A DNA stretch of 64,000 bases from NCBI GenBank assembly GCA_019038645.1, contig JAHOYT010000005.1, positions 1 to 64,000 of the forward strand. Direction: 5' to 3'. This stretch comes from Bacteroidales bacterium (lineage in GTDB: Bacteria > Bacteroidota > Bacteroidia > Bacteroidales > UBA12077). The position numbers and the translations under genes are program-made. Below are positions 199 to 5,694 of this stretch, one piece after another. Positions within the stretch are counted from its first letter, which is position 1. Each line of letters opens with the position of its first letter. The notes beneath the pieces were generated by a model. The model had not been told where the DNA came from, ran no database searches, and saw only the letters and a program-made list of their open reading frames with translations.

Positions 199-1635
199 TT
201 GAAAGAATTTATAAGAATTCTAAGATTATCATCATTAATTCTATTATTAATGTTGTCCTTTAATACCTGTAAGGAAAAGGAGAAAGAGTCATTTGTTAAC
301 TTAAGCTCTATTGAAAAAATACAAAAAAGAGGAACGTTAATTGCTGTAATGGACTTTAACTCAACAAATTATTTTATTTACAGGGGAGAACCAATGGGTT
401 ATCAGTATGAGTTATTGCAGCTACTTGCTAAACATTTAGATGTAAAACTGGAGGTAAAACTTGAAAATGATATTGATGAAAATTTTAGAATGCTTAAAGA
501 AGATGAATGTGATATTATTGCAATAAATCTAACTATAACAAAGGAAAGATCTAAATTAATAGACTTCACTTATCCTCATAGTCAGACACATCAGGTGTTA
601 GTTCAGAGAAAACCAGAAAACTGGAAAAAGTTAACGAAGCAAGAATTAGAAAGGAGTTTGTTAAGAAACCAGTTGGATATAGCAGGAAAGGTAGTTTATG
701 TGCAAAAAGGAACCTCGTATGCACAAAGAATGAAAAACCTGTCTGATGAAATTGGGGATAGTATAAATCTTATTGAAAAAGCAGATAAAGAGGTTGAAGA
801 ATTAATAGAATTAGTTGCAAGAGGTGAGATTGAATACACCGTAGCGGATGAAAATGTTGCGTTGGTAAACCAGATTTATTACCCTGTACTTGATGTAAAA
901 ACCGCTGTAAGTTTTCCTCAAAATTTAGCGTGGGGATTAAAAAAAGGTGATGAATCCTTAAAAACGGAAATTGATAATTGGTTAAAGGATTTTAAAAAAT
1001 CAGCAGGATATAATATAATTTATAATAAGTATTTTAAAAATCCACGATCTGTAAGAATTGTTGAGAGTGATTACTATTATTCAACCTCGAGCGGAAAAGT
1101 TTCAAAATATGACGATTATATTAAAAAACATAGTGAGGATATTAACTGGGACTGGAGACTTTTAGCATCTTTAATATATCAGGAATCCAGATTTAAACCA
1201 AATGCAAAATCCTGGGCGGGAGCATATGGATTAATGCAGTTAATGCCAACAACAGCACGTCGTTTTGGTGTTAGTAAGAACTCATCTGCTGAAAAACAAA
1301 TTAAAGCAGGAGTTGATTTTATTAAATGGCTTGATAAAAGATTTGAAGTTAGAGAAATTACTGATGAAGATGAGAAGATAAAATTTATATTAGCTTCATA
1401 TAATGTTGGTTTAGGGCACATCCTTGATGCCCGCAGGTTGGCAGAAAAAAACGGCAAGGATCCTGATATATGGGAAAACAATGTAGATGATTATATTCTT
1501 AAAAAATCAAATCCAAAATATTATAAGGACCCAGTTGTTAAATATGGCTACTGTCGTGGATCTGAGACATATAATTATGTTTACCAGATTTTAGACAGAT
1601 ATGAACATTATAAAAATATTATACCTGAAACTTAG
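199..1635 (+). CDS. mltF: MltF-type lytic transglycosylase with solute-binding domain
   Basis: Predicted to cleave the MurNAc-GlcNAc bond of peptidoglycan, leaving 1,6-anhydro ends. An N-terminal hydrophobic segment ends at Cys24 (LSFNTC), which suggests a lipoprotein although the lipobox is weak. Residues about 45-275 form a family 3 solute-binding domain, and residues about 315-470 an SLT domain with YQESRF (catalytic Glu329) and GAYGLMQLMP. This two-domain order is that of MltF, and the length of 478 residues fits. The start is TTG; the first in-frame ATG (codon 18) would cut off most of the signal peptide. The 3' end overlaps the convergent NUDIX gene by 17 bases. The SBP domain is regulatory in characterised MltF proteins; that role is assumed here. 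Confidence 0.88.
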   Translation: MKEFIRILRLSSLILLLMLSFNTCKEKEKESFVNLSSIEKIQKRGTLIAVMDFNSTNYFIYRGEPMGYQYELLQLLAKHLDVKLEVKLENDIDENFRMLKEDECDIIAINLTITKERSKLIDFTYPHSQTHQVLVQRKPENWKKLTKQELERSLLRNQLDIAGKVVYVQKGTSYAQRMKNLSDEIGDSINLIEKADKEVEELIELVARGEIEYTVADENVALVNQIYYPVLDVKTAVSFPQNLAWGLKKGDESLKTEIDNWLKDFKKSAGYNIIYNKYFKNPRSVRIVESDYYYSTSSGKVSKYDDYIKKHSEDINWDWRLLASLIYQESRFKPNAKSWAGAYGLMQLMPTTARRFGVSKNSSAEKQIKAGVDFIKWLDKRFEVREITDEDEKIKFILASYNVGLGHILDARRLAEKNGKDPDIWENNVDDYILKKSNPKYYKDPVVKYGYCRGSETYNYVYQILDRYEHYKNIIPET

Positions 1636-2251
1636 AATTGTTTTTTTCAACAATTTCAAGAAATTCTGATAGAATCATCGCAGTGGCTCCCCAAATTGTA
1701 GTATTGTCGGGATTGTAAATTGGTGCATCAAATGACAAATCTCCATATTTAAATTCTTTTGAAGTGCAGTTTTCAGGATTAATAAGATCTTTTAATTTGA
1801 TTTCTATTACTTCTTTTACTTCATTTGGATCAGCTTTAAAGACCGGAGTACTTTCATAAAGGCCAATAACAGGGTAAACAAAAAAATTACTTAAAGGAAT
1901 AAGAAGAGGCGTCAGTTGACCTAAAACATTAACCTTTTCCGGATTAACACCAATCTCTTCATGACTTTCACGTAAAGCAGTATGGACTATATCATTATCT
2001 GTTTTTTCTGATTTTCCGCCAGGAAATGAGATTTGTCCACTATGCGGACCATTGTATACGGTTCGTTGAATAAATGTAATATATAGTTCTTTATTTTTCG
2101 GATAAAGAAGAATCAGTACACCTGCTTTTCGGCTTTTTTCGGTAGGTTTAAACTGATGTCGAACACCCGGAGCCATTTTTACATGAGCTTTTTCACCCGG
2201 AAGGTCTTTTTTTAATTCTTCCTTTAGGTCCTCTAAAAAATCAGTGAACAT
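1619..2251 (-). CDS. NUDIX hydrolase, CoA pyrophosphatase type
   Basis: Likely hydrolyses CoA or its derivatives to 3',5'-ADP and phosphopantetheine. The Nudix box lies at residues 78-102 (PGGKSEK...TALRESHEEIGV) with the REXXEE metal ligands intact. It is preceded by QRTVYNGPHSGQISFPGG, the signature that separates CoA-type NUDIX enzymes from other family members. The 210 residues are normal for the group. It is the last gene of a leftward run, 6 bases after gatD, so it is probably co-transcribed with gatE-gatD; no functional link to tRNA amidation is evident. Exact substrate is inferred from the signature only. Confidence 0.88.
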   Translation of the reverse strand: MFTDFLEDLKEELKKDLPGEKAHVKMAPGVRHQFKPTEKSRKAGVLILLYPKNKELYITFIQRTVYNGPHSGQISFPGGKSEKTDNDIVHTALRESHEEIGVNPEKVNVLGQLTPLLIPLSNFFVYPVIGLYESTPVFKADPNEVKEVIEIKLKDLINPENCTSKEFKYGDLSFDAPIYNPDNTTIWGATAMILSEFLEIVEKNNSKFQV

Positions 2252-2257
2252 GATTCT

Positions 2258-3643
2258 TTATTTTCTGAAATTTCTAATAAAATCCTCAACCTCAGGAACT
2301 CCTCCCTGGTATATCAGATAACCGTTGTATGGCTCCCTTTTTGTGATTTCATCATTAATTGGTGTAAGCATTATTTTTTCGATTTCTTCAGGATCTTCAG
2401 TTTGACCTAAAGCCCATCCTAATTTAATAAAGGCCACTTCAGGCAACATATTTCCTGCAGGTATAATACCTTTTGCCATCATATCTCTACCAGTGTCGTA
2501 TACAAACATATGTACGAAACCCCAAAGTGTTTGTAGCGTCATGTACATTACAACACCTTTTTTAGTAGCTCTTTCAATAGCAGGGTACAATTCTTTGTTA
2601 ACATGACCTAAGCCAGTACCAACAATAATGATTCCTTTATAGCCATTATCTACTAATGCATCAATAGTATCAGGTTTCATCCCGGGATAATAATATAACA
2701 TGGTAACTTTATCAGAGAAATATGGAAGTATATCTACATTTCTATCTTTTCGCCTTTGTTTATAGTCTTTTTTAATAGGAGTAATTTTGTCTCTAGTTAC
2801 TGTAGCCAAAGGAGTGTCTCCAATAGTTCTAAAAGTTGACCTGTAAGATGAATGCATTTTTCGTACTCTTGTACCTTTATGCAATAAGCCATATTCATCT
2901 GATGTGGGACCAAACATACAAACCATTACTTCTGCAATATCTGAGTGGCCTGCAGTTTTCATTGCATGCATTAAATTAAGAGCTGCATCAGAGCTGGGAC
3001 GATCTGAAGATCGTTGAGAACCTACCAAAACAATTGGTATAGGAGAATTCTGTACCATAAAAGTTAAGGCTGCACCAGTGTGATGAAGTGTATCTGTTCC
3101 ATGTCCTATGACAATACCATCTATACCATTTTTAATTTCTTCTCCTATTGCTTTAGCAAGTGCTACATATTGTTTAGGACCCATGTTTTCGCTGAAAACT
3201 GCAAACACTTTTTCTGTAGTAAGGTTACAAATGTCAGCAAGTTCAGGGACAGCACCATATAGTTCTCCTGGCGAAAAGGCAGGTATTACCGCCCCTGTTC
3301 TATAGTCCAGTCTGGATGCAATAGTTCCCCCAGTACCAAATAATTTTACACTGGGAAGGCCTTTTGTTATAGGAAATTCTTTTTCAGGGATTTTATAATT
3401 GGCTTTTTTATAACCAGTTTCTTTCATTTCTTTAATAGTGCCAATATCAATTCCAATGTTATATCCAGTTGCAATTTTTAATACAATGTGAATATCATCA
3501 TCATTTTCGGCTCGAGGAAGAACTGTACCTTCAAAATCACCTCTTGTAGTTTGGATTGATGTTTGACCCCAAACCCTAACATTATATTTTTTTAGAACTT
3601 CTAATGCTTTGCCTTTATATCCTTGAAAAATATCTTCGCTCAT
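2258..3643 (-). CDS. gatD: Glu-tRNA(Gln) amidotransferase subunit D (archaeal type)
   Basis: Asparaginase-like subunit that releases ammonia from glutamine or asparagine and passes it to GatE for conversion of Glu-tRNA(Gln) to Gln-tRNA(Gln). Residues 1-95 are the GatD-specific beta-barrel extension (VLKIATGYNIGIDI), which separates it from free asparaginases. The amidohydrolase part has GTGGTIAS (103-110, catalytic Thr), HGTDT (181-185) and the later Lys motif VRKMHSSYRSTF. All three are intact. At 461 residues it is slightly longer than typical archaeal GatD. It follows gatE on the same strand after 59 bases that contain a palindromic repeat. GatDE is generally described as an archaeal enzyme, so its presence in a Bacteroidetes chromosome is unusual. 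Confidence 0.93.
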   Translation of the reverse strand: MSEDIFQGYKGKALEVLKKYNVRVWGQTSIQTTRGDFEGTVLPRAENDDDIHIVLKIATGYNIGIDIGTIKEMKETGYKKANYKIPEKEFPITKGLPSVKLFGTGGTIASRLDYRTGAVIPAFSPGELYGAVPELADICNLTTEKVFAVFSENMGPKQYVALAKAIGEEIKNGIDGIVIGHGTDTLHHTGAALTFMVQNSPIPIVLVGSQRSSDRPSSDAALNLMHAMKTAGHSDIAEVMVCMFGPTSDEYGLLHKGTRVRKMHSSYRSTFRTIGDTPLATVTRDKITPIKKDYKQRRKDRNVDILPYFSDKVTMLYYYPGMKPDTIDALVDNGYKGIIIVGTGLGHVNKELYPAIERATKKGVVMYMTLQTLWGFVHMFVYDTGRDMMAKGIIPAGNMLPEVAFIKLGWALGQTEDPEEIEKIMLTPINDEITKREPYNGYLIYQGGVPEVEDFIRNFRK

Positions 3644-3662
3644 TATTTTTGGATTTGAATAC

Positions 3663-3685
3663 CTGCCTGACGGCAGTCAGGGCAG
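3663..3685. repeat. Small palindrome, CCTGAC-N4-GTCAGG family
   Basis: CCTGAC (3666-3671) and GTCAGG (3676-3681) form a hairpin with outer CTG/CAG pairs. The same arms with a different loop occur at 37617-37635. Such GC-rich palindromes stand out from the AT-rich background and resemble the dispersed REP-like repeats of Bacteroidetes. It sits between gatE and gatD. Confidence 0.6.
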
Positions 3686-3702
3686 ATAAGTTAAAAATGA
3701 AA

Positions 3703-5694
3703 TTAATTTTGTTCTATTGCTTTTGCCAATTGATCTGGTGGGATATTTCCTATTGCTGTTTTTTGTAATTCACCCATAATCCATTGTTTTGATACTTTAT
3801 CATCCTTAGAGATTTTTATCTCAGAAAATTTTTGTTTTAAAAAAGGTATTTTTGATATGATTTCTTCTCTTGTAAATTTTTTAAAATTTATACTCGTGAG
3901 AATAGAATCAAAATCCATTTTTGGGTATTGATAAACAACCGGAAGCATCTTTTTGCTTAGCTGGATATCCATTTTTTTGTCAATTAAATATTTAAAGAGA
4001 TCATAAATTTTCGAGTATTCAAATTTATCTGCAGATGTATAATGACCTTCGACAAACTTTAATCGATGCCCAATAAAAGTACCTATTAATTTTGGTTCAA
4101 TCTTTAAATTCTTGATTACATTTTCTATTAATGGGAATAGATTATTTCTAAAGATATAAGTATATGTATCTTCAGGAATCCCCCATTTTTTAAGCTGATT
4201 ATATCTGTCAATTACATCTGATGGTAAATTTTCACTAAGTCCATCAATATAAGTGTTTTCTAAAGGAATCGGTGCTGAATCGGTATCCGGATACATTCTG
4301 TCAGCGCCCGGAAGAACTCTTTCAAAAATAGTTGTTCCATCAAGAAATGATTTACGAGTTTCCTGAGGAACTCCTTCAAGAGCCATTTGACAACGTTCTT
4401 CAATTGTTTCTAATGCAGTAGGAATATCTTCCTCCGGTGCCCAGAAAATAATTTGAGCATCATTTTCTTTTGCATTAAAAAGTTTCTGTATTTGTGAGAA
4501 ATTTTCTTCTATAATTTTTGGCTCTAATTCTTCAGAATGAACCATGTTTGGTTTCTCAATACAAGCAATAACCTTTAATCTATCAGAAATTTCATTGGCG
4601 AATATCTTGCCTGGTTGAGTAAAATGAGATAAAATTCCCTTAAAATTTGGAAGATTAACTGCTAATATTCTGTACTTATCAATTAATCCATTTGTAATTG
4701 GATCGTATTTTAAATCAAAATCACGATAATCAATTTCCTGTTGTTGTATTTTCCATTTTGAAGAATCTTTTATCGTATTGTTTAATTTACTCTTGATATT
4801 AAGTAAGGCCCACTGACGAAATGCTTCAATATGAGATAATTCGGGAATTAATTTATTGTAAGAAACACCTTTTATTTCAACCCGTGTTCCGCCTTTACAA
4901 CTAACATTAACATCTTCGCGTCCGGCGCCACTTCCTACTCGTACTCGTCCTGTACTTCTGTTTAAGAATCTAATATATTCTGCAGCTTCTTTTAATTCAT
5001 CCGGAGTGTACATTTCGGGATATGTAACTGTTTCGATCAAAGGCATTCCTAATCGATCAGTTTTGTATAATCTCGTATGTCGAATATCAGAAATTTCTCT
5101 ACAGGAATCTTCTTCAATGCTTAATTGAATTAATCGTATTTTTTTATTTTTCAAAGGAATTTCGCCTTCAACACCTAAAATTGCTGTTCTTTGAAATCCA
5201 GTTGGAATACTTCCATCTAAATATTGTTTTCGTGTAATATGAACTTCACCCACGATATTTAATTTACATAATAATGAAATTTCCAATGCATATTCCAATG
5301 CTTCTCTGTCAATTTTGAATGGAGGAGTATCATCAATTTCGTAAGTACATGCAGTTTCATTATTCAATCTGTAGATAATTTCCTTTTTAGTTTTGTATTC
5401 CATTAGCGCAGTCCCGTCGTATTCTCCTAACTCACTTAAAGTTGGGCGCATATGACGAATTACTTCAGCGTTGAAATTATCGTGACTGTGAAAAATGCCG
5501 GCAGGACAATGACAAAACAGTTTTTCTTTTGTTTTTAATTGCTGATGAACTTCTAATCCCGACATAAAACCAATTCGCTTATAATCAGCTTTCGTAGCTT
5601 TTTTTCTGGATACATATCCTATTTCCTGTCGGGTTTGTTGATAATTTTGTTCAGGGTTAAAATCAGTAGTTTCGGGGGATTTATTTTTTTTCAT
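3703..5694 (-). CDS. gatE: Glu-tRNA(Gln) amidotransferase subunit E (archaeal type)
   Basis: ATP-dependent kinase/amidotransferase subunit that phosphorylates the glutamyl group on Glu-tRNA(Gln) and amidates it with ammonia from GatD. The GatB/GatE cradle begins at residues 41-53 (IGFMSGLEVHQQL) followed by a Cys-rich segment (FCHCPAG, 60-66). Mid-protein motifs such as GAGREDVNVS and VEIKGV are typical of the GatB/E fold. An insertion at roughly 290-430 corresponds to the GAD domain of GatE and bacterial AspRS, which GatB lacks. The C-terminus ends in a helical tail with GNIPPDQLAKAI. The 663 residues are close to archaeal GatE. No GatA or GatC gene is nearby. First gene of the gatE-gatD-NUDIX run. 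Confidence 0.93.
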   Translation of the reverse strand: MKKNKSPETTDFNPEQNYQQTRQEIGYVSRKKATKADYKRIGFMSGLEVHQQLKTKEKLFCHCPAGIFHSHDNFNAEVIRHMRPTLSELGEYDGTALMEYKTKKEIIYRLNNETACTYEIDDTPPFKIDREALEYALEISLLCKLNIVGEVHITRKQYLDGSIPTGFQRTAILGVEGEIPLKNKKIRLIQLSIEEDSCREISDIRHTRLYKTDRLGMPLIETVTYPEMYTPDELKEAAEYIRFLNRSTGRVRVGSGAGREDVNVSCKGGTRVEIKGVSYNKLIPELSHIEAFRQWALLNIKSKLNNTIKDSSKWKIQQQEIDYRDFDLKYDPITNGLIDKYRILAVNLPNFKGILSHFTQPGKIFANEISDRLKVIACIEKPNMVHSEELEPKIIEENFSQIQKLFNAKENDAQIIFWAPEEDIPTALETIEERCQMALEGVPQETRKSFLDGTTIFERVLPGADRMYPDTDSAPIPLENTYIDGLSENLPSDVIDRYNQLKKWGIPEDTYTYIFRNNLFPLIENVIKNLKIEPKLIGTFIGHRLKFVEGHYTSADKFEYSKIYDLFKYLIDKKMDIQLSKKMLPVVYQYPKMDFDSILTSINFKKFTREEIISKIPFLKQKFSEIKISKDDKVSKQWIMGELQKTAIGNIPPDQLAKAIEQN

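Follow-up and report, generated by a model that had tools for sequence, protein, structure and literature searches.

The 64,000-nucleotide stretch of a Bacteroidales genome analysed here (the window) encodes a tRNA-dependent amidotransferase of the GatDE family, a heterodimer that is complete and under selection. Both genes are located on the minus strand: gatE (3703-5694; 663 amino acids, ATG start), encoding the kinase/transamidase subunit of Glu-tRNA(Gln) amidotransferase, lies upstream of gatD (2258-3643; 461 amino acids, ATG start), encoding the glutaminase/asparaginase-type subunit with a GatD_N domain, with 59 bases between them. Directly downstream of gatD is a gene for a NUDIX hydrolase similar to CoA pyrophosphatases (1619-2251, minus strand), which belongs to the genomic context and is not part of the enzyme. 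It is possible, with a chance slightly short of even, that GatDE is an old enzyme, widespread in at least a dozen bacterial phyla, that normally works with GlnRS and either repairs Glu-tRNA(Gln) or amidates another acyl-tRNA.

Both products pass the cut-offs of the curated NCBIfam models for the family: GatD scores 501 bits against the GatD model (cut-off 310) and 496 against TIGR02153 (cut-off 324), and GatE scores 472 bits against the GatE model (cut-off 456) and 408 against TIGR00134 (cut-off 320). The scores of the window GatE against the NCBIfam GatB models are far under the cut-off, so that the GatE models win by a wide margin. Since the NCBI models are passed, the names GatD and GatE are presumably already attached to these genes in database annotation; what is lacking is their interpretation. 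The Pfam domains identified are GatD_N, Asparaginase (N) and Asparaginase_C in the gatD product and GatB_N in the gatE product; Pfam gives no match for the GAD-like insertion of the latter. One-to-one residue mapping indicates that the catalytic T-T-D-K set of GatD (T107, T183, D184 and K262) is retained, as are the catalytic residues of GatE (H50, E194 and E221, matching the reference positions H15, E157 and E184 of the Methanothermobacter thermautotrophicus GatE). The nearest solved structures to the pair are 2d6f and 1zq1, both of archaeal GatDE. The AlphaFold2 model of the window GatE (mean pLDDT 88) predicts the fold of archaeal GatE, including the AspRS-like (GAD) insertion: the whole model aligns to the archaeal GatE of 2d6f with a Z score of 35, compared with about 28 for GatB, and the segment 313-441 aligns to the AspRS insertion domain with a Z score of about 10. 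The predicted layout comprises a cradle containing H50, E194 and E221, the GAD-like insertion at 313-441 and, beyond about residue 492, helical and tail domains. The initial annotation had described an intact, co-directional gene pair, a GatD barrel with asparaginase motifs and a GatE cradle with a GAD-like insertion, and each of these features is recovered here.

The same annotation presented the pair as peculiar to a Bacteroidetes chromosome, a framing that the profile survey contradicts. In a scan with each species represented by one genome, GatE was detected in, at least, MAGs of Ignavibacteria, Kapaibacteria, Aminicenantes, Cloacimonetes, Planctomycetota, Krumholzibacteriota, Fermentibacteria, Myxococcota, Gemmatimonadota, KSB1, Caldithrix, Coatesbacteria and Acidobacteriota, most of these phylum names being taken from the titles of the MAG records; Thermoplasmatota and the cultured Marinifilum flexuosum DSM 21950 are listed as well. 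Among Bacteroidota of other classes, GatE over the cut-off is encoded in 30 of 34 genomes, a set preselected on GatB/GatE matches that had suggested GatE. Thus gatE, usually with an adjoining gatD, is present in at least a dozen bacterial phyla and is no oddity of Bacteroidetes. In 102 of the 138 GatE loci, gatD comes after gatE in the same orientation, at a median distance of 7.5 bases. No neighbour other than gatD is conserved across phyla at these loci, and the neighbourhood provides no functional hint; the NUDIX-gatD order is shared by congeners and M. flexuosum (L216) but is not maintained across phyla. Several loci (L162, L183, L185, L191 and L211) contain gatE with several kilobases of flanking sequence and no gatD nearby.

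In phylogenetic trees, GatE of all genomes studied falls outside GatB; the grouping of GatE inside bacterial GatB, which the initial annotation had named as the observation that would count against it, is not found. The bacterial GatE sequences form a block apart from those of M. thermautotrophicus, Pyrococcus abyssi and Natrinema, with an identity of about 29-40% between bacterial and archaeal sequences, compared with 47-57% among the three archaeal ones. Near the base of the bacterial block are three Thermoplasmatota MAGs and Coatesbacteria. An old transfer from archaea, as suggested in the initial annotation, may have taken place. The archaeal sequences included are only those of M. thermautotrophicus and P. 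abyssi, the frameshifted Natrinema copy and the three Thermoplasmatota MAGs, and the branches are long; with so few archaeal sequences and such branches, the GatE tree gives neither donor, direction nor age of any transfer. The Bacteroidales GatE comprise one well-supported clade, with the window sequence inside it. Two genomes from another class of the phylum, G214 (L139) and G445 (L140), encode a GatE of the Bacteroidales type that is 63% identical to the window protein, and other members of their family carry the other type of GatE (43% identical). The Aminicenantes GatE sits among those of Ignavibacteria. Together, these two placements suggest that the pair moves sideways between bacteria. 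On a Natrinema plasmid (L141, 2914-4484), there is an unannotated GatE-like stretch in two pieces, apparently frameshifted, with no gatD nearby.

Coexistence with GlnRS is the rule in these bacteria, so that, on gene content, GatDE would normally not be the route to Gln-tRNA. Among 59 Bacteroidales genomes, including that of the window, GatE is present in 34, and GlnRS-type matches were detected in all GatE genomes of the order except G000, G033 and G058, the assignment to GlnRS or GluRS being made by frame length and score as the family model covers both enzymes. For GatE genomes from many groups, GlnRS over the cut-off is found in 66 of 80 (G174 and G456 in this set being one genome under two labels) and in 27 of the 31 with a known completeness of at least 90%. 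Three of the four well-completed genomes without GlnRS (G309, G345 and G371) carry GatB, and only G058 has neither. Among Bacteroidota of other classes, those with GatE only (G174, G218, G230, G254, G352, G403 and G427) all encode GlnRS. AsnRS is present in 42 of 44 genomes tested (38 of 40 GatE-positive and 4 of 4 GatE-negative); these GlnRS and AsnRS counts indicate that Gln-tRNA and Asn-tRNA formation appears to be independent of GatDE.

Several synthetase loci differ from this general picture or are of separate interest. In two genomes of the window's order, G033 (L067 and L068) and G038 (L071 and L072), GatB and GluRS are found with no GlnRS match, unlike in nearly all others. The in-frame stops reported in GlnRS of G482, G484 and G493 are the natural ends of intact genes of 541-547 amino acids. 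GlnRS directly adjoins gatDE or gatE in only two genomes, distant from each other: one of Bacteroidota (G072; L287, 3918-8961) and one of Planctomycetota (G497; L288, 3162-7567), the latter with a long GlnRS frame of 780 amino acids. Two Thermoplasmatota MAGs contain a bacterial-type GlnRS near a homologous aldolase-like gene (L285, G494:C81, 396-2087, and L286, G487:C81, 2257-3587); the former is over the GlnS cut-off, the latter runs off the contig end, and both MAGs have a match to a GluRS of archaeal length elsewhere. All archaea lack GlnRS according to a review, and these genes could represent a genuine archaeal GlnRS, or else contamination common to both MAGs.

Recognition of tRNA-Gln by archaeal GatDE involves the D-loop and A1:U72 (PMC9499178). 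In Bacteroidales, the tRNA-Gln(CUG) gene beside glnS has U1-A72 in GatE-positive (G029 and G048) as well as GatE-negative (G030 and G056) genomes, and those of G048 and G056 are identical over the shared 74 bases; this evidence pertains to the CUG isoacceptor in genomes outside the window's genus. The tRNA-Gln genes found have G37. The A1:U72 element, absent from the tRNA-Gln(CUG) of the GatE-positive hosts, characterises the archaeal members studied and not the protein family. Hence no archaeal-style recognition element seems to accompany GatDE here, which limits the claim of archaeal-type tRNA recognition and not that of homology. Given U1-A72 in place of the archaeal A1:U72, bacterial GatE might read tRNA-Gln differently, or its substrate might be another tRNA. 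The residue of GluRS equivalent to Arg358 is uninformative as a test of tRNA-Gln discrimination since it is Arg in all cases, including the GlnRS-less controls G038, G345 and G371, which presumably have a non-discriminating GluRS.

Family membership, active sites, fold, selection, gatD-gatE pairing and coexistence with GlnRS and AsnRS are directly supported by these observations. Beyond them, there is a roughly even chance that bacterial GatDE is a genuine Glu-tRNA(Gln) amidotransferase that provides a secondary or repair pathway alongside GlnRS, acting on a bacterial-type (U1-A72) tRNA-Gln. Under this scheme, mischarged Glu-tRNA(Gln) would arise via GluRS, or via GlnRS using Glu; judging by the conserved residues and fold, GatD would free ammonia from glutamine or asparagine, and GatE would phosphorylate the side-chain carboxylate of Glu-tRNA with ATP and then amidate it, so that the mischarged species is turned into Gln-tRNA(Gln) beside GlnRS, which is not replaced. 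A literature search found no biochemical account of a bacterial GatDE. Against the proposed role stand the U1-A72 pair and the fact that many Bacteroidales lack the two genes, so that GatDE is dispensable at that level.

The proposal that Gln-tRNA(Gln) is made solely or mainly through GatDE, with a non-discriminating GluRS placing Glu on tRNA-Gln, GatDE amidating it and GlnRS missing, draws on the assembly that contains the window (3.39 Mb in 102 contigs, with a completeness of 96.9%), in which the tRNA-synt_1c family has zero matches, that is, neither GlnRS nor GluRS. GluRS is essential to every cell. In congeners, a bacterial GluRS (about 510-525 amino acids) and GlnRS (about 570 amino acids), which in L061 are over the curated GltX and GlnS cut-offs, are encoded within a conserved region, separated by about 4-6 kb. 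The 12-kb congener stretch that holds gltX and glnS has no match anywhere in the window's genome; this search had no built-in control, and in an external one, congener DNA of the gatDE region readily matched the window at 76-81% by blastn. Because the essential GluRS is absent too, together with the entire 12-kb block, the apparent lack of both synthetases is best explained by an assembly gap, a reading preferred here to a biological absence of GlnRS. The other genome in favour is G058, of the same order and 96% complete, which encodes GatDE and GluRS and lacks both GlnRS and GatB (L065 and L066); it is the best candidate for a sole route, or another gap. Considering that the congeners and 27 of the 31 well-completed GatE genomes encode GlnRS, and that G482, closely related to the GlnRS-less G481, has an intact GlnRS of 543 amino acids, a sole or main route is highly improbable, and the suggestion of the initial annotation that this lineage perhaps does without GlnRS is not borne out. 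A search covering the GatB family, of the kind that it recommended, found no such gene in the genome other than gatE.

That the pair is a relic, recently acquired or decaying and without a role, is scarcely credible. Its patchy distribution over Bacteroidales families fits such a reading. However, comparison with congeners shows both genes to be under strong purifying selection, with dN/dS of about 0.02-0.03 for GatD and about 0.04-0.07 for GatE (Jukes-Cantor dN 0.03-0.04 and dS >1.3 for GatD, dN 0.05-0.09 and dS 0.6-2.1 for GatE, the higher dS values being near saturation), and a relic is already disfavoured by these data. Furthermore, 22 of the 25 genomes from the window's family, many of which are draft MAGs, encode GatE, and gatD and gatE are kept together across phyla. 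The main rival to the repair or backup role is that bacterial GatDE kept its chemistry and changed its substrate to another Glu- or Asp-charged tRNA or to some other carboxylate, which we consider unlikely. With GlnRS and AsnRS present, a Glu- or Asp-amidotransferase has no essential task left, and both the U1-A72 of tRNA-Gln and the low identity between bacterial and archaeal GatE, compared with that among the three archaeal sequences, would fit a changed substrate. Against it, the pair passes the equivalog cut-offs for GatD and GatE, the tail and GAD domains of GatE, used in tRNA binding, are kept, and no candidate alternative substrate was found, with no hint from the gene neighbourhood.

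The window pair resembles archaeal GatDE (Methanothermobacter 2d6f and P. abyssi 1zq1) in its two subunits, GatD_N plus asparaginase architecture, cradle, GAD-like insertion, tail and catalytic residues, with identities of 46-47% for GatD and 32-35% for GatE. Unlike archaeal GatDE, the bacterial one lives with GlnRS and usually AsnRS and with U1-A72 in tRNA-Gln, and its GatE forms a block apart from the three euryarchaeal sequences. Bacterial GatCAB performs the same type of reaction, and its GatB is homologous to GatE (structural Z about 28), but the window GatE lies outside GatB, is best matched by GatE models and is the only GatB-family gene found in its genome. GatCAB of Deinococcus and Thermus is understood to serve Asn-tRNA(Asn) formation; in contrast, no Asn-tRNA(Asn) job is evident for bacterial GatDE, as AsnRS is present and the substrate described for the archaeal enzyme is Glu-tRNA(Gln). 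The retention of an amidotransferase despite GlnRS is nevertheless shared with the GatCAB of Deinococcus, Thermus and Pseudomonas (PMC3927822), and coexistence of GatCAB with both synthetases is noted in another report (PMC4206432).

GatDE is now found only in archaea according to a 2022 review (PMC9499178), and a 2021 review likewise treats it as archaeal in discussing archaea that miss AsnRS (PMC8007984), in agreement with the initial annotation, which called GatDE generally archaeal. A 366-genome survey of bacterial Gln-tRNA enzymes describes Bacteroidetes as mostly having GlnRS without GatCAB and leaves GatDE unmentioned (PMC3927822), and, by their titles and abstracts, none of the surveyed publications that use the name GatDE seems to describe a bacterial one. 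The supposed archaeal restriction has been used in arguments on LUCA and on the lack of GlnRS in archaea (PMC9499178). The presence in many bacterial phyla of an intact GatDE under selection, along with GlnRS and bacterial-type tRNA-Gln, removes the archaea-only premise. If GatDE is indeed an old, widespread enzyme that normally functions beside GlnRS, neither the archaea-only textbook statement nor the argument for mutual exclusion of GatDE and GlnRS would stand. Marinifilum flexuosum provides a cultured system in which to test the job of an amidotransferase seemingly made redundant by GlnRS.
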